IMG/VR virus record: IMGVR_UViG_3300046536_000055
Coordinates: 1 to 25,523 of that record
Strand: one strand, 5' to 3'
Length of the DNA: 25,523 nucleotides
Source of the DNA: a virus
A program made the position numbers and the translations under genes. Within the stretch, counting starts at the first letter, position 1, and each line of letters opens with the position of its first letter. The notes under the pieces are model-generated. The model was not told the origin of the DNA. It worked only from the letters and a program-made list of their open reading frames with translations, and ran no database searches. Positions 645 through 24,213 of the stretch are shown in pieces.

Positions 645-1730
645 TTAGGTGACCGGCACGCCGTTGACGAGCACGACAACCTCGCCCACCACGTCGATGT
701 CGACCCGAACGGTCGCCGGCCGGGCTGGCGGCACCGGGCGCGGTGGCCGGTCGCCGCCTTCCGGTGGCCGCTCTGCCACTTGAGGCGGCCCGCCGAGCAC
801 CTGGGCGATCTGCTCGCATATCACGTCGAAATTCGTTTCGTAGAGCGCAGCATCGGCGGTGCTGTCGACAAAGCACGTCTCGATCAGGATTGCGGGCTGC
901 TCGGTGTTGTTCAGGAAGTACAGGTCAGTCCGTTTCTTGCCGCCGCGGTCGATGAAGTCGCCAGCGTCCGCGATGGCCGCCGACATCTCGCCCGCGAGCG
1001 CCGACTGTGTGACGTACAGCACCTCGGTGCCCATCGGCTTACTGGTCTGTTCGTAGGCGTTGAAGTGCACGCTCACGTCCAGCTCGCGCTGCTGCGCGTT
1101 GTGATAGTTGACGATCGTTTCGAGGTTCTGATTTTGGCTCGTGCTTGTGTCATCGTGAAACGTCATCACGTCGACGCCGCGGGCAGCGAGCTTGTCGGCC
1201 ACAGCCTCGACCACGCGCCGCGCCTCGTCGACCTCGTCGAGCACCCCGCTGGCGCCGCGCACAAGTTTGCCGTGGCCTGAAGAAATGACAATGCGATCGT
1301 ATGGCATGATGGTGTCTCCCTGTTCCTGATCGAGCGGAAATGTCACCTCGACCTCGTCGTCGGTCTGGATGCCCAACGCGTCCATGAGGCCGGGCGAGAT
1401 ATCGGCGATGCGCCCGGTATCGACATGCGGACCCCAGTCGGCCGGGTCGCAGACGAACTCTTTGCCGGTCTTGGGCGCGCGCACCAGCACCTTGACGTCG
1501 AGCAAGTCGTCTTTGGACGTGCCAGGAGCGTCATAGTCCCAGCGGCATGCGATGTAGAAGACGGCCGGGTTGAGCCTGCGCGCCAGCCCGGTCGTGCCGG
1601 GCGGCTGCGTCGGCAGGAACAGGTGCGGCGCCATGTCGACCGAGTAGATGAAGGCGAGCGGCTCCGATGGCGAGACGCCCATGTCCTCGGGGCCGCCGAA
1701 CCACGAGACCTTGCCGCGCAACTTGGTCAT
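645..1730 (-). CDS. Endolysin: N-terminal double-psi-barrel-like region plus N-acetylmuramoyl-L-alanine amidase
   Basis: A 361-residue peptidoglycan hydrolase. Residues about 144-313 are an Amidase_3 zinc amidase cutting the bond between MurNAc and L-alanine. Zinc ligands fit His153 (SSGHG), Glu166 (LDEVDEA) and His222 (VSVHFNA); the catalytic glutamate fits Glu284 (ILIETCFVDS). Residues about 5-132 contain RWDYDAPG, CDPADWGPHVDTGRIADIS (Asp98, Asp110) and DDEVEVTF, a double-psi-barrel-like pattern comparable to that in the tape measure. Residues 314-340 are a Pro/Arg linker and the final 20 residues a short hydrophobic beta hairpin. No signal peptide is seen, so it likely depends on the upstream membrane protein for access. 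It ends seven bases from the convergent plus-strand gene. Confidence 0.92.
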   Translation of the reverse strand: MTKLRGKVSWFGGPEDMGVSPSEPLAFIYSVDMAPHLFLPTQPPGTTGLARRLNPAVFYIACRWDYDAPGTSKDDLLDVKVLVRAPKTGKEFVCDPADWGPHVDTGRIADISPGLMDALGIQTDDEVEVTFPLDQEQGDTIMPYDRIVISSGHGKLVRGASGVLDEVDEARRVVEAVADKLAARGVDVMTFHDDTSTSQNQNLETIVNYHNAQQRELDVSVHFNAYEQTSKPMGTEVLYVTQSALAGEMSAAIADAGDFIDRGGKKRTDLYFLNNTEQPAILIETCFVDSTADAALYETNFDVICEQIAQVLGGPPQVAERPPEGGDRPPRPVPPARPATVRVDIDVVGEVVVLVNGVPVT

Positions 1731-2034: not shown

Positions 2035-3813
2035 TCATGGCCGCGCCTCCAAAGCCTCGATGCGAGCCATTGCTTCCTGCAGTGCTTTCGTCAGCGCCGC
2101 GATCACCGTGAACGGGTTAGGTGACTGGATAGTGTCAGGCGCATCCTTGACGCCGGTCGCAGCCGATGGCGTCAGCGTCTCCTGCAACTCATGGGCGATG
2201 AAGCCCCAGCGCTCGATGTCGTCGGCGGCGAACAACGGGCCATAGGCTTCCTGCGGCGGATCGATGCCTTGCTCTTGCGCCGCCTGTTCGGCCTTCAGTT
2301 TGTCGGCGGCGTAAGCCTTGATCTGACTTGGCGGAGTGAATTGCGCCTGCGTGTACTGGATCGGGCGCAGCGCCTTGACCGTGTCCCACATGGCGGGCAA
2401 CGGCAGCACGTCCTTCTTGATGCGGTAGTCCGATGACGTAGTGATCGTGCCAAGGTTGGTGGCATCGATCCATAAATTCTGCGGCGACCAATCGATGTTG
2501 AAACGGTTGGAGCGAACCGCACCACCGTCACCGGCCGTGCAGCAGTATCCATGAGACGACCGGAAAGTGGCGCTGGAAACGAACTGGGTGCCTCCCTGCG
2601 TAACGAAGTTCGCACCATCAAAGCCAATGTAACCGCTAGAGCCGTAGAAATAGTAGCCCGCAGTCCCGGAGCGGGAAGCGGTGATGTCGCCAGCACTGAT
2701 GCTGCCAGCAACAGTCAATGTTCCATTGACTGTCGGATTGCCCGTGAACGCTGGCGAGGCCAGCGGAGCCTTCAGCGCGTCCTGCGTGTCGACGTAGGTC
2801 TTGTCGGCCTTCAGCGCATCGGCGGTGTCGACATAGCTCTTGTCGGCCTTCGCCGTATCGCTTGGATGGACGTGATCTTGCCGCGCAAAATTTGTTGACG
2901 TTCCAATAGCTGCGGCGCCATCCATAAGAGGCGGCACAGTTGCGGGACTCCCAGCGCCAGGAATCCCTTGCGGTCCCTGCGGCCCGACGAGCGACGTCCC
3001 AGCCGGCCACGCACCCGAGGTCTTCGGGCCAAAAAGGTAATTGCTCGCGGTGTTGATGTAGAAATTTCCGTTGACGCCAATTCCAGACGTCGGATCGCTC
3101 GTGCCGTAAAGCACGGTATTGCCAGCGACGCCTTGCGGTCCTGTGTTGCCAATCGGCCCTTGCGGCCCGACGAGAGAAATGCCGGCCGGCCAAGCGCCTG
3201 CGGCCTTCGGGCCATAGATGAAGTTCGTCGAGGTATTGATATAGAAGTTGCCGTCAACCCCAGTGCCGGCGGTCGGATTGCTGGCGCCGTAGAGCACGCT
3301 GTTGCCGGCCGTTCCCGGCGGCCCCGGTACGGTGGATGCGGCGCCCGTTGGGCCGGTCGGCCCCGGTGGCCCGGTCGCTCCCGCAGGCCCAGTCGCACCT
3401 GGAGCGCCCGTCGCTCCGGTCGGCCCCTGCGCTCCGGGCGACCCTTGCGCGCCGGTTGCGCCAGTCGGCCCTTGCGGCCCCGGTATAGTCGAGGCGGCGC
3501 CCTGCGGCCCCTGTGGACCGGCCGGCCCCTGCGGCCCCGGTATGATCGAGGCCGGCCCTTGTGGCCCCTGAGGCCCCAGCGGCCCTTGAATTCCTTGCGG
3601 CCCTGGCGGTCCTGGCGGTCCACCGGCCGGCCCTTGTGGCCCTTGCGGTCCTTGCGGTCCCGGCGGCCCGCCAGCCGGCCCCGGTGGCCCTGGCGGCCCC
3701 TGATCCCCCGAAACAATCGTCTCGATGTTGTCATAGGCAAGCACGACAACGGCACTGGTGTCGTCGGCTGAAACGATGGCGTCATAATCGGTACTGACCT
3801 CGACGAAGCTCAT
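2035..3813 (-). CDS. Collagen-like tail fibre with duplicated modules and C-terminal S74 intramolecular chaperone
   Basis: A 592-residue fibre. Residues 1-36 form an attachment region. Residues about 38-169 are collagen-like G-X-Y triplets, broken by AS(I/T)(I/T/V)PGP interruptions. Residues 171-220 and 232-281 are two copies of a 50-residue module (NxVLYG...GNFYIN...YGPK/FGPK...SLVGPQGP). [19 protein letters not shown] trimerisation-type segment lies at 313-330. Residues about 455-592 are an S74 chaperone with [10 protein letters not shown] (predicted self-cleavage serine at 460/461), then [11 protein letters not shown] and a final coiled coil. In known S74 fibres the chaperone folds the trimer and cuts itself off. 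I chose ATG 3813 because it overlaps the preceding stop; upstream in-frame codons lie in that gene. Confidence 0.92.
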
Positions 3814-4157
3814 CGCGTCGGTCCCGCATTGTTGGTCAGCGTGCCGCCCCACACCCTCGTTTTTAGACCCGCTAACGTCATGATGAGGGAATGATCGAAG
3901 CTGCCGAGCCCAAGCCGCTCAAGCGTGTCCTGCAGAATCTTGACCGTGAAGAAGCCATGCACCGGATCGGTGATCACGATCTCGCCGGTATCGGTAGCGA
4001 GTCGCAAGAGCGCATCGGCGTCCGCGGCGTGGCGGCGCAACATCATCTCAAGCGAAGCGCCGGTGATGTTGATCGGCGTGGTGCTATCGACCGTCACGTA
4101 CTGAAATAAGCGATAAAAGTCGGCGTCGTTCTCGACCGTGATGTTGACGATGGCCAT
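3810..4157 (-). CDS. Small BppU-like baseplate/fibre-associated beta protein
   Basis: A 115-residue protein with the plan of small baseplate-upper-type domains. It begins with a beta strand and aromatic residues ([18 protein letters not shown]), then the [20 protein letters not shown] element, [14 protein letters not shown], and a late strand ([20 protein letters not shown]). Such proteins commonly precede or link to collagen-like phage fibres. Its stop overlaps the start of the next fibre gene as ATGA (3810-3813), suggesting the two products work together, possibly with this one as adaptor. Family assignment is moderate; function is inferred. Confidence 0.65.
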
Positions 4158-9958: not shown

Positions 9959-11191
9959 TCAATTCCTCAGCAACGGCGCGTTGGTTTGCGCCGTCCCTTC
10001 CTCGTCGGCCTTGGCCTTCGCGGCGATGTCCGCTGCCGCCTGCGCCGCGGCGTCGGCCCTCTGTTTCGCCATCGTTTCCGCCATCGCGTCGCGATAATTG
10101 AGCAGGCCGTTCATGTGAATCGGCCTGACCATCTGCAGCGTGGTCGTGGTGCCTTGATCGTTCTGCTCGTAGACGCAGCCCGCACAGCCGAGCACGAGCC
10201 CGTTGAGGATCAGCGACGGCGAGGTGACGGTGTAGTATTCGCCGGCCTTCCACACATCGCTGCTTTGGTTCTGATCCTTGAACCAGCCCTGGACGGTTAT
10301 CTGGGCGTCGAGAAAGCTGCCCTCGGTGAAGACCTTCTCCATCATGGCCCGGCGCTGCACGCCGTGCATGGTGTCGGCGACATCGGCAATCGTCACCAAG
10401 TAGCGGTTCCGCGTCGAGCTTCCGACCTCGTATGCGATCTGCTTGTTCTTGGCGTCGCCGTATGAGCTGTCGCTTCCGGTCCCCTGGCCGAGCACGTAGA
10501 TTTTTTTGTAAACCTTCTGATCCCGAAACACTGCATTCGCACGCAGGACGTTCACGCCCTCGATCAGGTCGCCGCTTGGGCTTGCGGCATGCTCGCCGAT
10601 CGCCAGCAGGCCGCCATTGGCGTTCGAACCGATGACGATGTTTCGGTCCCTCGCGTAGCGTTCCAGCGCCGCCATTATTGTGTCGCCGGGCTGGATCTGA
10701 ATGTTCTCGTAGGGCGTCGGATCGACCAGACCCTTTTCCTCCAATGCAATGCCGAGATGTTCCATCAGGTCGCGCGCCAACTGCGACCATGCTTTACCGT
10801 CGTGGCCGTTCAGTTTCTCGATTGGCACCGATGAATCTGTCAGATCGACAGTGTCGCCGCAGCCGATCAAGCGAACGCCGTGGTTGTTCGCGTCCAGGCC
10901 GACGTGGCGCTCGGTGATGTAGCCGAACACCGCGGGCACGCCGCCGATATAGACCCGCACGATGTCGCCGGGCACGAACTGCAGGGCGTCCCAGGTCTGC
11001 GGGATTGGGCTCTCTTCGGTGGCCTCGAATTGAAAGACCGGGAACGGCTCCGTCACGCGCTGCTCGACCCGCACCGATGTCCAGTTTGTGTAGAGGCCGC
11101 CGCGCACTTCCAGCGTCGCGATTTCCTTGCCGGTGTTCAGGCGAACCGGAATCGGCTGCGGAGCGAGACGGGCGGGGAGCGTGAGCGCCAT
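9959..11191 (-). CDS. Baseplate hub protein, Mu gpP (gp44) type
   Basis: A 410-residue hub protein equivalent to T4 gp27/Mu gp44, forming the trimeric ring between tail tube and spike. The N-terminal half is beta-rich (TLEVRGGLYTNWTSVRVEQR, then QFVPGDIVRVYIGGVPAVFG and YITERHVG). The mid-region has NIQIQPGDTIMAALERYARD followed by NANGGLLAIGEH, a standard hub motif. C-terminal beta sequence includes VQGWFKDQNQSSDVWKAGEY. The last about 40 residues are an Ala/Lys-rich helix. It lies between gpN-like and gp45-like genes, as in Mu, with single-base gaps on both sides. Confidence 0.92.
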   Translation of the reverse strand: MALTLPARLAPQPIPVRLNTGKEIATLEVRGGLYTNWTSVRVEQRVTEPFPVFQFEATEESPIPQTWDALQFVPGDIVRVYIGGVPAVFGYITERHVGLDANNHGVRLIGCGDTVDLTDSSVPIEKLNGHDGKAWSQLARDLMEHLGIALEEKGLVDPTPYENIQIQPGDTIMAALERYARDRNIVIGSNANGGLLAIGEHAASPSGDLIEGVNVLRANAVFRDQKVYKKIYVLGQGTGSDSSYGDAKNKQIAYEVGSSTRNRYLVTIADVADTMHGVQRRAMMEKVFTEGSFLDAQITVQGWFKDQNQSSDVWKAGEYYTVTSPSLILNGLVLGCAGCVYEQNDQGTTTTLQMVRPIHMNGLLNYRDAMAETMAKQRADAAAQAAADIAAKAKADEEGTAQTNAPLLRN

Positions 11192-11192
11192 C

Positions 11193-11861
11193 CTACACCG
11201 CCAGCATCTTGCCCTGGCGCGGGCAGAAAGCAGGATGAATGATCTTGTTCTCAGCGATCAGCTCGGCAAAGCGCGACGGGTCCGCGTAGGCGAGCTGCGC
11301 CATGCGAAGCGCCGGCATCACCACGGGATAGTCGTAGTTGATGACGCGCGGGAGCAGGCGCCCGAGATCGGCGAGATGCTTGACGACGGCCGCTTGAAGC
11401 GAGATCAGCGTCTGATACACCCCGGCATCGAGATCGTCCGACGCAACATCGCTTGTCTGAGCAAATGCCGCATTCGCTGCGGTTGCGAGGGCGTCCACAT
11501 CGTCGCGGGAAACGAAGGTCATCGCCGTGATGATGCGGGCCTCGCAGGCGAGCGTCAGCCGCACGATCGCGAGCACCGTCTGGACCGCCGGAAGGCTCGC
11601 CGGCGCCTCTGCCAAGGCCGCCTTGCGGACCCGGTCCATCGTCACCACCGTCGCCGCGCTCATGCGGGCCAATTCCAGGCACACCATGAATGCGATGGCG
11701 AAGGTCGGCAGATTTGTCATGTTGACGTCCACGATCATCATGCCGACCGCCCGGCGCAGCGAGGTGCCGATGCTTCCGCTCGGATTGACCGCCGACGAAA
11801 GCACCACCGGCCCGATGCGCTGGACAATCCCAAGCACCTCATTTGCTTCGTCGCTCGTCAT
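11193..11861 (-). CDS. DNA circularisation/gpN-type protein, C-terminal half as a separate cistron
   Basis: A 222-residue, mostly helical protein. Its end (ALRMAQLAYADPSRFAELIA, then NKIIHPAFCPRQGKML) is the pattern that closes Mu gpN-type proteins, where a helix is followed by an asparagine and HPAF. The middle is Ala/Val-rich helix, which in single-chain homologues links the N-terminal domain to this end. It starts with ATG overlapping the previous stop as ATGA and is followed one base later by the hub gene. The function is likely to act with the preceding product as one tail-tip component (inference). Confidence 0.72.
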   Translation of the reverse strand: MTSDEANEVLGIVQRIGPVVLSSAVNPSGSIGTSLRRAVGMMIVDVNMTNLPTFAIAFMVCLELARMSAATVVTMDRVRKAALAEAPASLPAVQTVLAIVRLTLACEARIITAMTFVSRDDVDALATAANAAFAQTSDVASDDLDAGVYQTLISLQAAVVKHLADLGRLLPRVINYDYPVVMPALRMAQLAYADPSRFAELIAENKIIHPAFCPRQGKMLAV

Positions 11862-12451
11862 GGCGCACCCGTGAAGATGCTTGGCGGTGAAGGCGGCGCC
11901 GGCGAGGTATCCGCGTTCTGAAGCACCTTCCCATAGGGCGCTGCCTGCTGGGCGGTTGTCGTGGTCGGCTCATTTGGCCCCACCACAGCGTTTTCGACGT
12001 TCGTTGCCGCTTGCGCGACCACTGCGGTTGTCGAGACTGTCGGGCGATAGAACGGCGTGCCGTACTCGACGAACTCCATTTCGATCGTGCAGAAGCCGCC
12101 GCGCTCGCGCGATTCCGAAACGCTGTAGTTCTGCACCATCACCTCGAGGTCGACCGCCATGTATTGCAGCGGCAGACGCAGCGTGCCGGGGCCGTCCATT
12201 TCCAGCGCATTTATGAGAATGTCTTTGTCGACGAGATAATTCGGTCCTATCAAATACCCGTTGACCAAAAACCGGTTCGCCTTTTTACCCATGTCCTCGG
12301 CATAATCGATTGACCTTTTCGGATACTCATGAAGCGCCACGCGCCGGCCGCCGCCGCGAGTGCCGGTTTCCATAAAAAACGTCGCATCCCGAAACCATGC
12401 CGGATACCATTTCTTGCGCCAGGGCGCGTTTGGGATGTCTTTGATCAACAT
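11858..12451 (-). CDS. DNA circularisation protein N-terminal domain (Mu gpN type, first half of a split gene)
   Basis: A 197-residue protein matching the N-terminal DNA_circ_N domain of Mu gpN-like tail proteins, which belong to the tail tip/baseplate. Markers are the N-terminus WRKKWYPAWFRDATFFME, the segment GGGRRVALHEYPKRS, and KKANRFLVNGYLIGPNY with the DKDILINALEMDGPGTLRLP stretch; these are close to the family consensus. The last about 55 residues are Ala/Thr/Pro-rich linker. Mu gpN is about 490 residues and single-chain. Here the gene stops after the N-terminal domain, and the next cistron begins in an ATGA overlap (11858-11861) and resembles the missing C-terminal part. Confidence 0.85.
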   Translation of the reverse strand: MLIKDIPNAPWRKKWYPAWFRDATFFMETGTRGGGRRVALHEYPKRSIDYAEDMGKKANRFLVNGYLIGPNYLVDKDILINALEMDGPGTLRLPLQYMAVDLEVMVQNYSVSESRERGGFCTIEMEFVEYGTPFYRPTVSTTAVVAQAATNVENAVVGPNEPTTTTAQQAAPYGKVLQNADTSPAPPSPPSIFTGAP

Positions 12452-12452
12452 G

Positions 12453-14894
12453 TCAGTTGCCCACCTGGGCAGGCAAAGTCGATGCGTCCGCGTTCACCCT
12501 GCCGGCAGGCGCGCTCGTCGGCTGCATCTGCTTGTAGCTTTGGATCGATGTCTTCTGGAAAAGATCGCCGTTGGTTTTCGTTTTCGCGCGGGCCGCAGTG
12601 CCATCGGAATGGATCTGGACATGAACCTGCCCGTCGACCTTCTGGGCGCCGGCAATGCGCTCGTCGATGCGGCGGTAGCTGAAAGGCTGATCGGTCGGGA
12701 AATCCTTCTTTGAGTAGCCCATCTGCTCGGCAGCGGATGCCGAGATGTCGATGCCGCGCCCAGTGCGCGCCGCCGGCCCAATGTCGGTCTGCGGCAGCAT
12801 GAAAGTTCGGCCATCTGGCGTTGTTACCTCGTGCATCTTGCCCAGGCCGGAACGCGACGGCAGCGCAATGCCAGGGACATAATTTGGCACGCCGGATGCC
12901 GTCTTGCGGCCATATGGCTCGGTTCGATCGGTGCCGAACCCGAAGCCGCTGCCAAATACCGATCCCTTTACGGTCGTTCCATTTCCCGGGCCGCCGCTTG
13001 ATTGTGCTGCGATCTCCGATGCCTTTCCTGGCTCGACGCCGTTTTTTATTAGCGCCTGTCGGGCAGCTTCGAAATTACGAATTCCGAAATGTCCGGTGTC
13101 AGGTCTTCGCCATTGATGCCCGGAAACCATTCCCCATTTGGCGGCGAGCGCGTCCTCGACGTCGGGTGCCAAGCTTGTTCCCCGTTTCGAGCGGACGCCG
13201 TAGCCGATCTGATTCACATCGATTGCCGCGCCAATCGGGTGCCCACTGGCATTTCTTGGGCGAAAGCCGAGCGATCCGGTATCGGGACCGAGAACGCCGC
13301 CCGCTTTTTCATAGTCGCTTAGGAAGCCTTTGAAATTTTGGGCGTATCGCGCGTCTACCTTGAATTGCTTGCCGCTCGGCGTGGTTACAGTCGCCAAGCC
13401 TGTTTTTGTGATCGCCGTGCCTGCCGGGGCCGTGATGCCACCCGAACCGCCCCCCGAGCCCCTTGGAGCGGCGCCGCCCGTACCCGCGCCAACGCTACCA
13501 GGGCCGCTCGGACGGCCATCACGATCCCCCGCGCTGCCAGCGCCGCCAGTCGGGCCAGCAGCACCACCGATGCCGCCAGGAATGTTGATGCCGCCGCCGC
13601 CGCCAGAGCCCGCGCCAAGGCCGCCGCCACCGATGGCGCCGCCGCCGCCTACACCGCCGCTCGCGCCCATCCCACCGGTGGCGCCGCCGCCGAAGAACTG
13701 CGCGCGCCCGCCCCCAGCGCCTGCCTGCGCATAGCTCTGGAAATCCACCAGCGCTTCGAACACGCCTGCCTTGACGATGCGTTGCGCGCCGCTCCCATCG
13801 CCGCCCTCGCCGCGCCGGTCCTCGATTTGGCCCTCTGCGTTTGGGAACGGTAGCGCGCTCAGAAAGTCGTCGTACTTGCCGCCGCCCCCCATGTCGGCGA
13901 ACTTGAAGACCGCACCGGGCAACCCCGGCACTGTTGATCCGGGCGGCGTCGGCACGAATGGCGGTTTGAACGCGGGGGGCAATGGGGGCGGCGGCATTTG
14001 CACGGGCGCTCCCAAGGTGCCAGCGGCCGTCTTCTTTGAATCAACCCACTTTAGAAAGTCGTCCCATTGCTGCTGATATCTCTCCATCTTTTCCATTTCG
14101 GAAGTCAGCCAAGGGAAAAGCGGCGTCGCGACCTTGTTCTTCAATTCGTCCCAAGTTTCGCCAAGGTTTACCAGACCCTCTATGTACTTTTGCGCGGCCT
14201 CCTCTTGTTCATTTGTTCTCGGAGTCAGTTTTGCGAACGTCGCTGCAACCTCATCCGCAGATACCCTCAGCAACTCGGCATTTAGGTGCAAATCGGTGAA
14301 TAATTGCTGCGCCCGATATTGACCGTTCGGCAGCGTCAAAAGCGTATCTTTGAATTTGAAGACTTCGACTAGTTGCTTTCCCTCGTCTTTCAACCCCTTT
14401 AGTTTCGACGCCAGAGGCCCGGCGCCCTTGGCGTACAACTCCATCGCGCTGCCCTGATTGTACTGCAGGGCTCCCATCGCATCGTGAAATCCCTTAAGGC
14501 CCTGCATCATTGACTGCGATGAAACGCCAACCTTCTGAGCCGCGACGCTCCAAGCGCGAATTTCGCGCTCGCTCATGCCCAGTTCTTTGCTGGCGAATTT
14601 CAGCTCAACGAGCTTGTCGGCCACGTCGCTGAAGGTTCGCAGGATGACGCCTGCGGCCACGCTAGCGCCTGCAGCGCCGAGCCCGAACGCGCCCAGAGAC
14701 GGAACGATGGATGTTATTTCCTTGCCGACGCCCTGGATCGTCTTGCCGAGAGTCCCGAAGGTCTTGTTCAGGTCATTTACGGCCGGCTTGATCCGCTGCG
14801 GCATTGCGCCGATTTCGCGGCCCCACGTGCGGAGAGCCGCGAGGCTTTCCTCTGTCGAAATCGTCGCCCGCATGCGCAGGATATCGTCAACCAT
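12453..14894 (-). CDS. Tape measure protein with M15-type peptidase and double-psi-barrel (RlpA-like) regions
   Basis: An 813-residue tail protein that sets tail length and is probably ejected into the cell envelope ahead of the DNA. Residues 1-60 are helical, 62-86 hydrophobic, and 90-290 mostly helical (the ruler part). Residues 296-326 are Pro-rich and about 393-490 extremely Gly-rich. Residues about 500-612 resemble an M15 / VanY-like LD- or DD-peptidase: SGHPIGAAIDVN (His552, Asp559), then HQWRRPDTGHFGI (His602). Residues about 645-722 resemble a double-psi beta-barrel of the RlpA/3D kind: KTASGVPNYVPGIALP, then QTDIGPAARTGRGIDIS (Asp704, Asp716). GGAG precedes the ATG at 14894. The large central low-complexity part makes the true helical ruler shorter than total length implies. 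Confidence 0.88.
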   Translation of the reverse strand: MVDDILRMRATISTEESLAALRTWGREIGAMPQRIKPAVNDLNKTFGTLGKTIQGVGKEITSIVPSLGAFGLGAAGASVAAGVILRTFSDVADKLVELKFASKELGMSEREIRAWSVAAQKVGVSSQSMMQGLKGFHDAMGALQYNQGSAMELYAKGAGPLASKLKGLKDEGKQLVEVFKFKDTLLTLPNGQYRAQQLFTDLHLNAELLRVSADEVAATFAKLTPRTNEQEEAAQKYIEGLVNLGETWDELKNKVATPLFPWLTSEMEKMERYQQQWDDFLKWVDSKKTAAGTLGAPVQMPPPPLPPAFKPPFVPTPPGSTVPGLPGAVFKFADMGGGGKYDDFLSALPFPNAEGQIEDRRGEGGDGSGAQRIVKAGVFEALVDFQSYAQAGAGGGRAQFFGGGATGGMGASGGVGGGGAIGGGGLGAGSGGGGGINIPGGIGGAAGPTGGAGSAGDRDGRPSGPGSVGAGTGGAAPRGSGGGSGGITAPAGTAITKTGLATVTTPSGKQFKVDARYAQNFKGFLSDYEKAGGVLGPDTGSLGFRPRNASGHPIGAAIDVNQIGYGVRSKRGTSLAPDVEDALAAKWGMVSGHQWRRPDTGHFGIRNFEAARQALIKNGVEPGKASEIAAQSSGGPGNGTTVKGSVFGSGFGFGTDRTEPYGRKTASGVPNYVPGIALPSRSGLGKMHEVTTPDGRTFMLPQTDIGPAARTGRGIDISASAAEQMGYSKKDFPTDQPFSYRRIDERIAGAQKVDGQVHVQIHSDGTAARAKTKTNGDLFQKTSIQSYKQMQPTSAPAGRVNADASTLPAQVGN

Positions 14895-14924: not shown

Positions 14925-15454
14925 TCATCCGCGTTTTTTCCATCTTTCGCCGGCCGCAAACATTCGATCGGTCCAGAATATATGGTCAAACACTTCTTCT
15001 ATAGGCAGCGCCAAAAACTCCGCCGGGTTTCGTCCGTAAATCTCCGCGAGGCGATAACAGTTTATCACCGCGGCGTCTGGCGCCACCCTTCGGCCACCTA
15101 CCGTCGTAGAAAAAAACCGTATAACAACAGCTCGCTGCAATGATCGAAATCGTCGCCGTCCATGCTCTGGATCGTCGACAGCGGCACTTGGGCGAGAGTC
15201 GACATGATCCGCCCCATAGGCCCCGGGCTTGCCCTGTAAGCGCCTGTCGTCATTTCGATGTGATACGGATAGACATCCCCGAGCGCCATGATGTCGCCGC
15301 CGGTCGGCCTGCGAAAAGTCAGCTCTTTGAGCGTCGCGCCAAAAGCCTGCACCGGCTTTCGCAATTCAATCACCAGTTCTTTCGGCCGCACGTTTTCGTC
15401 TGCCGGCGGTTCGGCCTCCTTGACCGGCTCTATCTTTCGCGGCTGCTCTGTCAT
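14925..15454 (-). CDS. Tail assembly chaperone, long -1 frameshift product
   Basis: This is the predicted extended chaperone, 176 residues: codons 1-115 of the short form, then -1 slippage on U UUU UUU (15116-15110), then 61 residues from the overlapping frame down to 14925. The joined sequence reads LLYGFFSTTVGGRRVAPDAA and continues with NCYRLAEIYGRNPAEFL and VFDHIFWTDRMF. The downstream frame lacks a convincing start of its own: its first ATG (15140) lies inside the upstream gene with no good ribosome-binding site. A G/GT-like or 41/42-like frameshift pair is conserved in most long-tailed phages at exactly this position before the tape measure. The sequence shows the overlap and slippery site; frameshifting itself is inferred. 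Confidence 0.82.
15098..15454 (-). CDS. Tail assembly chaperone, short product (E/41 type)
   Basis: A 118-residue protein of the Mu gp41 / P2 gpE class. Such chaperones bind the tape measure and guide tube assembly but are absent from the virion. The N-terminus is Pro/Glu/Lys-rich and probably disordered. The folded part carries RKPVQAFGATLKELTFRRPT and GGDIMALGDVYPY, both characteristic of the E/41 group. It ends LLLYGFFLRR followed by stop. The end of this frame contains seven consecutive T residues (minus strand) where the ribosome can slip by -1 into the next frame. The short form is made without slippage. Confidence 0.9.
   Translation of the reverse strand: MTEQPRKIEPVKEAEPPADENVRPKELVIELRKPVQAFGATLKELTFRRPTGGDIMALGDVYPYHIEMTTGAYRASPGPMGRIMSTLAQVPLSTIQSMDGDDFDHCSELLLYGFFLRR
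15110..15116 (-). promoter_or_regulatory. Programmed -1 ribosomal frameshift slippery site (T7)
   Basis: On the minus strand the zero-frame codons are GGT TTT TTT CTA, giving a perfect X XXY YYZ heptamer of seven T. A one-base backward slip keeps full pairing of both tRNA-Phe and moves translation into the 61-codon downstream frame. About 23 bases after the heptamer there is a possible stem (GTGGCG / CGCCGC, with one G-U pair and loop CCAGA, at 15070-15086) that might stimulate slippage. The distance is longer than usual, so its role is uncertain. Confidence 0.8.
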
Positions 15455-15473: not shown

Positions 15474-15833
15474 TTAAATCTCGTCGCAACTGATTCCCTC
15501 GAACCTGATGCGAAACTGGCCGTCGTGCGAGTTGATATCGAGCGGCGGCTTGCACCACGCGTTGTGGAGCACGTAGCTCTTTTGATTGATCAGGTCAGCC
15601 TGGATTGTCGAGTTCGTGATCTGCTCCAAGACCTCGATCGACACTTCCGGCAACGTCGACATGTCGCATTCGATGTAGGGGACGCGCGGCAGCTCCTGAT
15701 AGCCGTGGACGTAGTCCTGGCCGGCGATCCCGGTGCGCTCGACCGGCGAGCCAGACACCGTCAGGTTGCCCTTGAGCGGATACATGTTGCCGTCGACCTT
15801 GATGGTCGCGGTGCCTGCTATCGGTCCAGCCAT
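15474..15833 (-). CDS. Tail tube protein, Mu gpM type
   Basis: A 119-residue tube protein that stacks as rings inside the sheath to form the DNA channel. Length and sequence fit the Mu-like tube family. It starts MAGPIAGTATIKVDGNMYPL with the usual GNLTVSG strand, then HGYQELPRVPYIECDMS. It contains the SIEVLEQITNSTIQADLIN segment and ends in GQFRIRFEGISCDEI. AGGAG lies 7 bases before the ATG at 15833. The chaperone gene follows after 19 bases. The sheath and tube genes are normally adjacent in Mu-like phages but are separated here by about 0.9 kb. Confidence 0.92.
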   Translation of the reverse strand: MAGPIAGTATIKVDGNMYPLKGNLTVSGSPVERTGIAGQDYVHGYQELPRVPYIECDMSTLPEVSIEVLEQITNSTIQADLINQKSYVLHNAWCKPPLDINSHDGQFRIRFEGISCDEI

Positions 15834-16727: not shown

Positions 16728-18281
16728 TTATGCAGCAATGGCTGTATCCACGCCCCTATTATACTGAAGGCGAAACTGGGCTAACACCGCAAAAACACGG
16801 AGTTGATTCACGAGATCGGGCGGATAGAGAACGTTAAGGCGATTCGGGTCGTTGCTGTCTCTTTCCACGATTAGATTGGTTTTGAATGCGTCTCCGTTTT
16901 CTGTAAGACCTAAGAATTCGTCCTGGCGATACTGCGAAATCAGCTCTGCCTTGATGGTTTTCGGCGTCACGATCGCCTGCCCGGCGCCGAACCGCGTGCC
17001 ATCATCGGCGAGTTTCGAGCGCGGAAATTTCGAGGTTATCGCCTGCCGCTGACGCCGGAACAGCGCCGATAGCGTGGCGAGCGTCGGCACCAGCTCGTAA
17101 GCGTCGTCGCCCTGGCCGTACAAGTTGAACTGATAGGTGGTCGTCTCCCGCAGGATACCGGGCGTTCCTGCGTCGCTCGCCGCCTGCGTCGCGATGCCGA
17201 CGCCCGAGAGATCGTTGCACTGCTTCTTGTTGAACCGCTGATGCTTGGGCGCCGGCAGGCAGCCGTCGAGGCTCAAGGTCTGCAGAGGTCGCGCCGGATC
17301 GTTCAGCAGCGCGCGCGCGGCCTTTGCGGTGTACGCCGCGGCCCAGCACCACGACGGCGTCGGCGAATGGTGCTCGACGCCCATGATCGAGAGCACGCCG
17401 CTGTTGTTGCTCGGGCCGTACTCCATCAGATCCATGTAGCCGGTGTTGTCACCGGCAGCGGTCACGCCGATCCTCGCCCCGAACACATGGCCGTAGAGCT
17501 GGCGCATCCACCCCCATCTGCCGACGTCGCTGAAGCCGTATTCCGTTTCGAGCAGCGCCAGCGTTGTGCTGTCGGTGTAGCCGGTCGCCACGTACTCGTA
17601 GATTTCATCGCCCAGGTTTGCGAGCGCTTTGGTGATGTCCACCGTGCCGGTACCGCTGCTGAGCTTGTTTCCGGTCGGGACCGTGATGCCGAGCCCGAAT
17701 GGCACCTGCTCGGCCGCGAGCAAGCCGCCATAGGCAAGCCGCACGTCGATCTCGTTTGCCTCGACGCCCTTCCACTTCGATGTCAGCGTCACCACGCCTG
17801 CTGCCGCGGCTGCGACGACCGGCATCGAGGGGTCGGCGTTGATCGCCGCTGCGATGTTTGTCCCGGTCACGTCGACCGTCTCGCCGGCGGCGACAAAAAC
17901 CTGAACGCGTCGGCCGCCGATGTAGACCGGGAGCGTGCCGGCGGAAGCTGCTGGCGTCGTCACCGTGATGGCGCCGGTGGCGACGACGCCCGCGGTCGCC
18001 TCTGCGATCGGAAGCACCCACAGCTCCTGCGCAAAATTGTTTTGCGTGAAGAACTGCACCATGGCGTCGAGCATCGAGCCGTAACCGAACAGCACGCGCG
18101 CATCGGCTTGCGACGGCACCGGAATCGGCACGTCGGGGATCGCGGTGCCGTTTGGGAGCATTGTGCCGATTATCAGGGAGGTTAAACGCGAGCGCGGATA
18201 CCCCGCCATGCTTGGATCCACCTCCACCCAAAACAGTGGCATGCGCCAGTTTGACGGGATGCTGTTGAAAGATACGGGCAT
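16728..18281 (-). CDS. Contractile tail sheath protein, Mu gpL type
   Basis: A 517-residue sheath protein that polymerises around the tail tube and contracts to drive it through the cell envelope. Length agrees with Mu-like sheaths (about 500). The N-terminus MPVSFNSIPSNWRMPLFWVE is typical of this family. It is followed by SRLTSLIIGTMLPNGTA, an Ala/Val/Thr-rich beta insertion domain (about 105-200) and GWMRQLYGHVFGARIG. The C-terminal half holds PRSKLADDGTRFGAGQ and, at the end, VFAVLAQFRLQYNRGVDTAI. Its AAGGAG lies 8 bases before the ATG at 18281. It marks the switch from lambda-like head genes to Mu-like tail genes. The tube gene, normally next, is displaced by two inserted genes. Confidence 0.95.
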   Translation of the reverse strand: MPVSFNSIPSNWRMPLFWVEVDPSMAGYPRSRLTSLIIGTMLPNGTAIPDVPIPVPSQADARVLFGYGSMLDAMVQFFTQNNFAQELWVLPIAEATAGVVATGAITVTTPAASAGTLPVYIGGRRVQVFVAAGETVDVTGTNIAAAINADPSMPVVAAAAAGVVTLTSKWKGVEANEIDVRLAYGGLLAAEQVPFGLGITVPTGNKLSSGTGTVDITKALANLGDEIYEYVATGYTDSTTLALLETEYGFSDVGRWGWMRQLYGHVFGARIGVTAAGDNTGYMDLMEYGPSNNSGVLSIMGVEHHSPTPSWCWAAAYTAKAARALLNDPARPLQTLSLDGCLPAPKHQRFNKKQCNDLSGVGIATQAASDAGTPGILRETTTYQFNLYGQGDDAYELVPTLATLSALFRRQRQAITSKFPRSKLADDGTRFGAGQAIVTPKTIKAELISQYRQDEFLGLTENGDAFKTNLIVERDSNDPNRLNVLYPPDLVNQLRVFAVLAQFRLQYNRGVDTAIAA

Positions 18282-21408: not shown

Positions 21409-22425
21409 TCACTTCCTCAAACGGGCGTTGATTTTGTCGGTGATCTTCGACCACGCCGTCGCGGCGACTTGCGCAGGCGGCAACAGCGGATGCTGCGGCA
21501 TCACCGACGGCTCGTCGGCGCGGGCCAGCAGCTCCTTGCGCACCTGCTCGACCGGCGTGCCCGCGCGCACGTAGGCGCCGACGCGTTCGGGCGCGCGCGC
21601 GAGAGCGCAGAGATCGGTGATGCTGTCGACGTAAGCCTTGTGTTCGGCGGCGCCGGTCTTCTTGGCGGCGTTTAGGTTGATCAGCTCGGCGGTGGGCTGC
21701 TGCTCGGGCTCGGGCTCGGGCTGCGGGACTGGATCGGATGCCGGCAGCGCGGGAGGAACCGGCTCCGCTGCCGGCACCGCCGCAGGCTCTGGGGGTTCGG
21801 TTTCATCGTCCCCCGCCAGGGCCTGCAGGCGTGCGGCCGCTGCCTTGGGTAACAGCCGCAACGGGAATTTCGCCGCCATCGTGATTGGCGCGGTGACCTC
21901 GTCGGCGAAGCCAAGCGACTTGGCCTCGTCGGCATCCATCAGGCGATCCTCTTTCATCAGCGCCTTTACCTTCGCCTGGGTGGTCTTGGCGCGGCTCGCG
22001 TAGGTGGCGGTCAGCGACTTGTCGATGCGATCGAGATCGTCGGCGAGCGCGCGGATGTCGTCGGCGCTGCCCATGGCGAAGCCCGACGCGCCGTGCACCA
22101 GCATGAAGCTGTTCGAGGGCATGATGATCTTGTCGGCCGCCATTGCGATGAAGCTCGCTGCCGACGCCGCGATGCCGTCGACATGGGCCGTCACAGTCGC
22201 CTTGTGATTCTTCAGGGCGTTGTGGATGGCGACGCCATCGAACACGTCGCCGCCCGGCGAGTTGATGCGCAGCGTGATGTTGCTCACATCGCCCAGGCCG
22301 TTGAGGTCGTCGAGAAACTGCTTTGCGCTGACGGTGTCCTCGCCCCACCATGAGCGTCCGATCTCGTCGTAGATGACGATCTCTGCGGCGGCTTCCTCGG
22401 CTTTCATCTGAAACCACTGGCGCAT
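21409..22425 (-). CDS. ClpP-type prohead maturation protease with C-terminal scaffold-like extension
   Basis: A 338-residue serine protease expected to sit in the prohead and trim capsid-associated proteins during maturation. Residues 1-195 match the ClpP fold. The predicted nucleophile is Ser88 in GIAASAASFIAMA, with His111 in FMLVHGA and Asp160 in LMKEDRLMDADEAK as the rest of the triad. The substrate-binding loop is INSPGGDVFDG. This differs from lambda, whose gpC is an S49/SppA-type enzyme. Residues 207-247 are Pro/Glu-rich. The C-terminal segment (about 255-338, with AEHKAYVDSITDLCALARAP) resembles the helical tail of phage protease-scaffold fusions. No separate scaffold gene is visible, so this tail may do that job (inference). 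The start at 22425 has GGGAG 8 bases upstream. Confidence 0.9.
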   Translation of the reverse strand: MRQWFQMKAEEAAAEIVIYDEIGRSWWGEDTVSAKQFLDDLNGLGDVSNITLRINSPGGDVFDGVAIHNALKNHKATVTAHVDGIAASAASFIAMAADKIIMPSNSFMLVHGASGFAMGSADDIRALADDLDRIDKSLTATYASRAKTTQAKVKALMKEDRLMDADEAKSLGFADEVTAPITMAAKFPLRLLPKAAAARLQALAGDDETEPPEPAAVPAAEPVPPALPASDPVPQPEPEPEQQPTAELINLNAAKKTGAAEHKAYVDSITDLCALARAPERVGAYVRAGTPVEQVRKELLARADEPSVMPQHPLLPPAQVAATAWSKITDKINARLRK

Positions 22426-22436
22426 GTGGGTGCTCC

Positions 22437-24008
22437 CTATGCTGCCTCTGCCGCGTCCGACGCCGCCTGATCGGCCGCGTCCTGCGCGTCTGCCTCGGCT
22501 TGGTCGGCCGCGGCCTGATCGCTCGGCGACATCGGCTGAGTGGCCGCCGCGTAAACGACGGGGAATGTGAGATCGAGGCTTTCTGCGCGCTCCGCATCCG
22601 CGGCAATGCGCTGGTCGGTTTCCTCGGGGTCGGAACCCTCGGCCTCGATCACGTCGCTGCGGCTCTTGAAGCCCGCATCAACGGCAAGCTTTTCGGCCTG
22701 ACGGTCCTTCAATGGATCGACCCAATCGTTGCGCTGCGGAATCCATTTTGCGGCCTGATATGCCGCTTGCGCCGCGAGGTAGACGCCGGATTCGAGCGGG
22801 AGCGCCTGGGCCAGGACCGCGGTGTCGAGCCAGCGCCGCCAGATCGGCCTGCACATCTGGAAAACGAAGATGTTGTGTTGAAACTGTTCGAGCTTGCGCC
22901 GGTATTCGACGATCGAGCCGCGCAGAGAGCTGTAGTTCGCGCGGCGCAGGTCGCTGGTGCACAGCGAATATGGAATGCCGAGCGCGCTGAACACCGCGAG
23001 CTGCTGGCGATACTGAAACGCCTCGTAGGTGCCGCCGACGTCGGCGGGCTCGGAGAACTTGATGTCCTCGCCCGGCAGCAGCGTCTGCAGGGTGCCGGGC
23101 TCGAGTCCCGACAGCGAAATTCCGTCCTGGCCGCTGCTGTCGTCGTCGCCGTCGATCGGAATGACGTCCTCGGGAGCCGCCGACGTGATGAAGCCGGCGA
23201 ACATCGCGGCGATGCGCTTGCGCTCTAATTCCGCATCATCGTACTGATCGAGGAAGAACAGCCGGATGAGCGCGGGCGTGATGAGCGGCACGCCGCGCAT
23301 CTGGCCGGGCCTGGTGCATTTGAAGATGTGCAGCACTTCGGACGCCGGAACGCGCACCGGCATGAGGCTCCCGGTCGGCTCGATCGGCATGTCGCCGGGG
23401 TGAGTGGGATAGAACCAATAGGCGGCGCGCCGGCCGAGCAAGTCCAGCTCGACGCCGTTCATGATCCAGTTGCCGTTGGGCGCCTGCATGTTCCACTCGT
23501 AGGGGCACATGTCGCTTTCGAGCAGTTGGATTTGCAGCGGCACCAGAAAGCCGTCCTCGACCTTGCGATTTCGAAAACGGATGAAGCACTCGCCGGCTTC
23601 GAACAGCGCACGCGCCACGATGCTCTGCATGCCGTAGAAATCGGCGATGCCGTCTGCGTCGCACTCGTCGGTCCAATCGAGCCACAGCCGTTGCAGCGTG
23701 GTCCGCAGGTCAGGCTGTTCGCTGAGCAGGGACGACGGCTTGATGCCGGTTCCGATGACGTTTGCGGCAAAGCTCTCGGCGGCGGCGTTGGCGTGAGGGT
23801 TGTTGCGCAGCACGTCGCGGCAGCGCGCGCGCAGGAGGCGCCCCGACGAAGTCATGATGACGTTGGTGGTGTACTGCGAGGGGAGCCAGCCCTTGAGACG
23901 GCGCCTGATTCCGGCGCCGTCATAGCCGCTGCGCCAGGGGGTGCCGAACTGGTTCTTGAAGAAGCGCCCCAGGATCCCTTCGGAGAGCAGCGCTCGGAGC
24001 TTGCCCAT
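22437..24008 (-). CDS. Portal protein, lambda gpB family
   Basis: A 523-residue portal protein that forms the dodecameric ring at the capsid vertex for DNA entry and exit. I chose the ATG at 24008 (MGKLRALLSE) because it immediately follows the gpW stop. The longer open frame upstream only overlaps gpW out of frame. Typical lambda-portal features are an early NNPHANAAAESFAANVIG helix, a WLDWTDECDADGIADFYG segment, and the core around CTRPGQMRGVPLITPALI followed by DQYDDAELERKRIAAMFAG. The last about 30 residues are an Ala/Asp/Gln-rich low-complexity tail, unlikely to be part of the conserved fold. The protease gene follows after 11 bases with a GGGAG ribosome-binding site. Confidence 0.93.
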   Translation of the reverse strand: MGKLRALLSEGILGRFFKNQFGTPWRSGYDGAGIRRRLKGWLPSQYTTNVIMTSSGRLLRARCRDVLRNNPHANAAAESFAANVIGTGIKPSSLLSEQPDLRTTLQRLWLDWTDECDADGIADFYGMQSIVARALFEAGECFIRFRNRKVEDGFLVPLQIQLLESDMCPYEWNMQAPNGNWIMNGVELDLLGRRAAYWFYPTHPGDMPIEPTGSLMPVRVPASEVLHIFKCTRPGQMRGVPLITPALIRLFFLDQYDDAELERKRIAAMFAGFITSAAPEDVIPIDGDDDSSGQDGISLSGLEPGTLQTLLPGEDIKFSEPADVGGTYEAFQYRQQLAVFSALGIPYSLCTSDLRRANYSSLRGSIVEYRRKLEQFQHNIFVFQMCRPIWRRWLDTAVLAQALPLESGVYLAAQAAYQAAKWIPQRNDWVDPLKDRQAEKLAVDAGFKSRSDVIEAEGSDPEETDQRIAADAERAESLDLTFPVVYAAATQPMSPSDQAAADQAEADAQDAADQAASDAAEAA

Positions 24009-24009
24009 C

Positions 24010-24213
24010 CTACAGCCCCTTGTCCGCCGGCGAGTACATGCGGATTTGCCGCGTGCGCTTGCCGCCGTTGAGCTGCGTTTCGATGTCGTTGAGGATTTGT
24101 CTGAGGTCGGACAGCGACCGAAATTCGGTGCGCTTGTCGCCGTAGCCGGCGCTGTTGACGCCGGACGCAATCAATTGCGTCAGAGAATCGAGCTGCGCTT
24201 GGCTGAAAGGCAA
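24010..24213 (-). CDS. gpW-like head-tail joining protein
   Basis: A 67-residue protein of the lambda gpW family, which adds to the portal after DNA packaging and helps form the site where the tail attaches. Its length is essentially that of lambda gpW (68). The sequence is mostly helical: an N-terminal helix (SQAQLDSLTQLIASG), a segment with RTEFRSLSDLRQILNDIE, and a basic tail ending in YSPADKGL. It sits between terminase and portal, exactly where W lies in lambda. Its stop at 24010 is one base away from the portal start at 24008, so translation is probably coupled. Confidence 0.88.
   Translation of the reverse strand: MPFSQAQLDSLTQLIASGVNSAGYGDKRTEFRSLSDLRQILNDIETQLNGGKRTRQIRMYSPADKGL

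Follow-up and report, generated by a model that had tools for sequence, protein, structure and literature searches.

CwlP (YomI) is the tape measure protein (TMP) of the Bacillus prophage SP-beta. Its two lytic domains are a lysozyme and an endopeptidase, and the five virion lysins with two domains listed in a 2017 review all came from Gram-positive phages (PMC5380687). Single lytic domains in TMPs are well known (PMC1796659, PMC6116005), and so is a tail-tip protein that combines a double-psi beta-barrel (DPBB) with a peptidase, the baseplate hub gp15 of Anabaena phage A-1(L) (PDB 8kea). The isolated DPBB (termed 'endoglucanase') and M23 domains of this hub each lysed cells, and mutants lost activity or expression (PMC10966104).

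We analysed a stretch of viral DNA of 25,523 nucleotides (IMG/VR record IMGVR_UViG_3300046536_000055, hereafter the window), in which a preliminary description had pointed to a TMP with two different peptidoglycan-active-type domains after a long Pro/Gly-rich linker. The minus-strand ORF in question (12453-14894) has a product of 813 aa; all four motifs of that description, as well as H552, H602 and D704, were confirmed in place, and a Pro/Gly-rich stretch at residues ~291-485 precedes both domains. The domains were assigned as M15-type and RlpA-like DPBB, so that two different wall-active types are indeed predicted in one TMP. The features of the window considered here are:

12453-14894, minus strand: TMP, 813 aa, with a C-terminal lytic cassette; assigned from PHROG matches and gene order
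14025-14894, minus strand: N-terminal TMP part, residues 1-290; common to relatives at 26-44% identity
13440-14024, minus strand: Pro/Gly-rich linker, residues 291-485; from the sequence
13029-13415, minus strand: M15-type peptidase domain, residues ~494-622; H552, D559 and H602 predicted Zn ligands, D599 predicted catalytic Asp
12669-12977, minus strand: RlpA-like DPBB, residues ~640-742; invariant D704 and D716, QTD and FPTD motifs
12456-12659, minus strand: conserved C-terminal tail, residues 746-813; kept across TMPs with quite different lytic cassettes
15098-15454, minus strand: tail assembly chaperone (Phage_TAC_7, E=5.5e-9), upstream neighbour of the TMP
15474-15833, minus strand: tail tube protein (E=1.2e-28)
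16728-18281, minus strand: tail sheath protein of a contractile tail (phrog_165, E=2e-161)
11858-12451, minus strand: DNA circularisation protein N-terminal domain (E=5.3e-22), downstream neighbour of the TMP
9959-11191, minus strand: Mu gp44/GpP-like baseplate hub (phrog_177, E=6.9e-56)
645-1730, minus strand: N-acetylmuramoyl-L-alanine amidase (Amidase_3, E=8.4e-25), probable endolysin

The best PHROG match of the 813 aa ORF was 'lytic tail protein' (E=1.6e-14). This name, together with the ~290 residues before the linker, which is short for a contractile tail, would suit a separate tail-lysozyme gene that is not the TMP. We consider this very unlikely, as several PHROG tape measure families match the ORF (phrog_2013, 8125 and 2276; E 1e-13 to 1e-14) and no other large gene lies in the interval from the tail chaperone to the DNA-circularisation gene, in the window or in its relatives. 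The tail assembly chaperone and the tube and sheath genes lie on one side, the DNA-circularisation and Mu gp44-like hub genes on the other, and the same gene order was found again in related loci. By gene order and PHROG match the ORF was therefore assigned as the TMP, with the setting of tail length as its predicted role. The whole TMP had no match among PDB sequences, none when used as query in a scan of genome contigs, and falls in no NCBIfam family.

The window phage is a contractile-tailed, Mu-like phage of soil type. A Rhizobiales host is inferred from the Bradyrhizobium genomes that hold close relatives of barrel-bearing TMPs. The separate amidase is the probable endolysin, which suggests a role other than lysis for the TMP domains. 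The DNA-circularisation/baseplate protein (11193-12451, minus strand) consists of two ORFs with a 4-base overlap, the first similar to the N-terminal and the second to the C-terminal half of phrog_184, which form one frame in related locus L004. Elsewhere in the window, a 605 aa ORF (2035-3852, minus strand) matches collagen-like adhesin models and probably encodes a tail fibre carrying collagen-like repeats, and a ClpP-related head maturation protease (21409-22425, minus strand) has a lambda-type portal upstream (22437-24170).

The M15 motifs of the TMP are SGHPIGAAIDVN from residue 550 and DTGHFGI from residue 599, with H at residues 552 and 602. Pfam Peptidase_M15_4 scored the window TMP at 17.7 bits (E=0.0055), below the cut-off of 25. 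Relatives matched by an HMM of the window-type M15 domain (E 5e-17 to 6e-13) pass this cut-off (E 4e-16 and 1e-16; 51.6-61.3 bits). A PDB search with the HMM of the M15 domain returned Ply500 first (E=0.011), followed by ChiX and another L-alanyl-D-glutamate endopeptidase; in the alignment, SGHPIGAAID fell on SNHNYGVAVD and DTGHF on DYPHF, with the H/D/D/H residues all aligned, and the predicted roles of these residues follow from the match to Ply500. These residues, H552, D559, D599 and H602 in the order H-x6-D ... D-x2-H, were invariant in 17 aligned sequences. The AlphaFold model of the domain had a pLDDT of 78.6, and ranks 1-8 of its Foldseek search were all M15 peptidases (VanXYc, LysB4, Ply500 and VanY; E 0.15-1.3). 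The dN/dS of the domain was 0.08-0.18 where dS was unsaturated, which indicates purifying selection. Among annotated phages, relatives were found for the M15 part alone (Synechococcus phage S-H38 and Rhizobium phage RHph_N65). By sequence and model, an M15-type Zn peptidase domain was assigned to residues ~494-622, with predicted peptidase activity and bond specificity.

The second domain carries QTDIGP from residue 702, with D at residue 704, and GRGIDIS from residue 712. Pfam DPBB_1 (PF03330) matched it at E~0.04-0.05 (14.6 bits, not reaching the cut-off of 28.8) and the barrels of 24 relatives at best at E=0.0057, and neither Pfam nor PHROG covers the window-type barrel above threshold. Profile-profile comparison with RlpA-type proteins gave a probability of 97.3% (E=1.7e-11); an M15 profile as control gave 0.4%. 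By HMM, the two families named in the preliminary description are thus reached through the M15 relatives and the RlpA comparison, the window domains themselves staying below the Pfam cut-offs. The predicted barrel model (pLDDT 86.5) matched the A-1(L) hub DPBB (E 2.4e-5) and PA4485 (E=3.5e-5, TM 0.67/0.78) in Foldseek; loosenin, expansins, kiwellins and MltA were further fold matches in the PDB, and RlpA-annotated proteins were matched in a viral library. In structure comparison the first model groups with M15 peptidases and the second with DPBB proteins (PA4485, MltA), as the earlier description expected.

Comparison of 24 phage barrels showed that two Asp residues, in D-x-G-P and GR-x-x-D, are kept in all of them (24/24); these are D704 and D716 in the window. 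Asp704, named earlier as a residue to replace, is an invariant candidate, and D716 is equally invariant, so it is one of two. The RlpA Glu (TASGE) was found in one of the 24 phage barrels versus 7 of 14 RlpA-type references, and the RlpA His (TAAH) in one of the 24 versus 13 of 14; the QTD and FPTD motifs are invariant within the phage barrel subfamily. The barrel is under purifying selection, with dN/dS of 0.13-0.24 where dS was unsaturated and 0.40 against the most divergent barrel. In 385 genomes surveyed across the host class, the known prophage gave the only strong barrel match, so it is a phage domain in that sample, and no credible relative of the barrel was found among annotated phages. 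Weak barrel matches in Bradyrhizobium (E 1e-4 to 1e-6) were rejected as TMPs, being mostly short RlpA-type proteins; the name 'endoglucanase' was also rejected for the barrel, as a fold label only. On sequence and model, residues ~640-742 are assigned as an RlpA-like DPBB of a subfamily separate from the RlpA type, which is a candidate new lytic enzyme.

The same barrel was also found in proteins of other kinds. In eight loci (L042-L046, L048, L052 and L054) it lies near the N-terminus of Gln/Pro-rich proteins of 600-825 aa with no recognised domain, which are possibly ejected virion proteins. Short lysin-like proteins carry it with a possible peptidoglycan-binding stretch (L049:3692-4237), an M15-like H/D/H segment (L053:3476-4381) or a CHAP-like domain (L055:3332-4741). 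In an unrelated TMP (PhageMin_Tail; L056:1034-4975) the barrel comes after an M23 peptidase, so that peptide cutter and barrel are paired here independently.

The frequency of such cassettes was determined in loci found with sheath and hub queries; prevalence from barrel-query loci was discarded, because the barrel as query biases the sample towards the barrel. The sample, built on exact 8-residue patterns of the window's own sheath and hub and thus restricted to near relatives, comprised 16 distinct complete TMPs including that of the window. The DPBB was present in 9 of the 16, beside an M15-type domain in seven and beside a CHAP-like domain in two. The window-type M15 with the barrel accounted for 5/16 (the window, L110, L114, L115 and L116) and another M15 subtype with the barrel for 2/16 (L084 and L124; subtype homology, profile E=2.8e-8), the barrel occurring after M15 subtypes b and c. 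The two TMPs with CHAP-like domain and barrel were L104 and L128 (PHROG E=1.8e-15; Pfam CHAP 0.0044 in L104). M15 was paired with a glucosaminidase in one (L089). The cassette of L090 has a weak Phage_lysozyme2 match and an M15-like segment, and that of L099 an endolysin-type match and an M15-like segment similar to that of L090. Two PDB sequence searches with other cassette domains gave no match. The M15 and DPBB pair is common within its own tail family, so the suggestion that the combination is uncommon does not hold: seven of the 16 TMPs have it, and an active DPBB with a peptidase has a precedent in A-1(L) (PMC10966104).

The TMPs of L089 (12350-14722) and L110 (11097-13529) are 79% identical in the N-terminal part, 86% in the M15 domain and 92% in the C-terminal tail. 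Between M15 and C-terminal tail there is no convincing similarity, since L089 has a PF01832 glucosaminidase (E=3.5e-7, above the cut-off) where L110 has the barrel. That a glucosaminidase can take the slot of the barrel speaks for a barrel that is likewise directed at glycan. In L104 and L128, it is the peptidase slot that is occupied by another domain, the CHAP-like one. The sheath of L005 is 79% identical to that of the window, yet its TMP has neither M15 nor barrel; the sheath of L022 is 54% identical, yet both domains are present, at 68% and 76%. Evidently, the lytic cassettes do not track tail relatedness. The C-terminal tail is recognisable across these exchanges, that of the window being 53% identical to that of L005, and probably anchors the cassette to the baseplate. 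The TMP of L005 (3399-6467) shares the N-terminal part and C-terminal tail and has a cassette of ~500 aa made up of other modules, with two Cys/His CHAP-like segments flanking an unassigned one.

Lytic-type domains can be dispensable in other TMPs, as is motif 3 of TM4 (PMC1796659), and the two domains here might likewise be degenerate, with no role in wall entry, and be kept as tail-tip scaffolding. This is highly improbable, because their catalytic residues are invariant in all aligned relatives, their dN/dS is well under 1, and other lytic families take their place in relatives.

The explanation we consider likely is that the distal end of the TMP is a two-slot virion-associated lysin, composed of an M15 peptide cutter and a glycan-acting barrel. 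The first slot would be an M15-type zinc endopeptidase, most like the L-alanyl-D-glutamate endopeptidases (Ply500), which cuts stem peptides; the second, the RlpA-like barrel, would have the glycan chain as its target and most likely cleave it. On sheath contraction the TMP would leave the tube with its C-terminal part first, into the periplasm, where both domains would open the wall locally for passage of the tube or the DNA. The last ~60 conserved residues may hold the cassette at the baseplate, and related phages trade the cassette among themselves. RlpA needs peptide-free glycan (PMC6895207), and an order in which the peptide cutter acts first would fit a barrel of this fold, though this is speculation. 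Several observations count against the two-slot lysin: the window TMP alone is below both the M15_4 and the DPBB_1 cut-offs, its M15 model had no Foldseek match at E 0.001 (best 0.15), its barrel lacks the RlpA Glu and His, firm assignment failed for the cassettes of L005, L087, L088 and L102, four of the 16 TMPs, and the barrel of the eight Gln/Pro-rich proteins occurs without a recognised peptide cutter.

Cutting of both the peptide and the glycan part of the wall, as first proposed, remains the best reading and is backed by the domain swaps, but its premise that RlpA-type barrels cut glycan is not simply transferable to the phage barrel, as the RlpA Glu and His are found in 1/24 each. The absence of these two conserved residues also fits a barrel that does not cut. 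It would then be expansin-like or a binding module, gripping or loosening glycan chains, and all cutting would fall to the M15 domain; expansins, loosenin and kiwellins are among its Foldseek matches beside the RlpA-like PA4485. To our knowledge, expansins keep the barrel Asp and yet do not hydrolyse. We regard a non-cutting barrel as unlikely, given that the QTD motif and the Asp of GR-x-x-D are invariant, that a glucosaminidase fills the same slot in L089, and that the barrel of the A-1(L) hub, which shares the fold, lyses cells, with activity or expression lost in mutants (PMC10966104), although that barrel retains the Glu and His. Nature has provided a swap experiment in the L089/L110 pair, which makes the function of the barrel directly testable. 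Tentatively, the two-slot lysin might be extended to a rule for Rhizobiales-type contractile-tail TMPs, each having a peptide and a glycan cutter, one slot often being an undescribed DPBB subfamily (QTD-x-GP ... TGR-x-x-D ... FPTD) that has lost the RlpA Glu/His and either works through another active site or leaves glycan uncut and loosens it; this generalisation is doubtful at present.

The A-1(L) hub gp15 is the closest precedent, in that a single protein of the tail tip combines an RlpA-type DPBB (Pfam DPBB_1, E=2.1e-17) with a peptidase (M23, E=5.5e-11), in a phage which has a contractile tail like the window phage and, as predicted for the latter, a Gram-negative-type host (PMC10966104). 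It differs in being a hub and not a TMP, in having M23 and not M15, and in keeping the RlpA Glu and His. CwlP is comparable in that two lytic domains sit on one tail protein, which is very large (PMC5380687), but its enzyme families are different and it belongs to a siphovirus of a Gram-positive host. The TMPs of TM4, T5 (pb2) and phiIPLA35 likewise have a lytic domain inside the tape measure (PMC1796659, PMC6116005), but one was reported in each, of other families. Ply500 and ChiX, M15C L-alanyl-D-glutamate endopeptidases, share H-x6-D ... D-x2-H with the window M15 domain and are its best PDB HMM matches, although statistical similarity is weak and they are not in a tape measure. The DPBB lytic transglycosylases RlpA and PA4485 (PF03330) share with the window barrel the fold, the TASG start, D-x-G-P and GR-x-x-D; the window barrel differs in missing the RlpA Glu/His, in its own QTD and FPTD motifs and in falling below the Pfam cut-off, and it is not, as RlpA is, a lipoprotein with a SPOR domain. 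Two-enzyme virion lysins had been regarded as a trait of phages whose hosts are thick-walled Gram-positives (PMC5380687), and here a contractile-tail family related to Bradyrhizobium prophages shows a putative two-enzyme design with exchangeable parts. Compared with these systems, two elements are new: the barrel subfamily, and the exchange of domains in two slots seen in Rhizobiales-type contractile tails.
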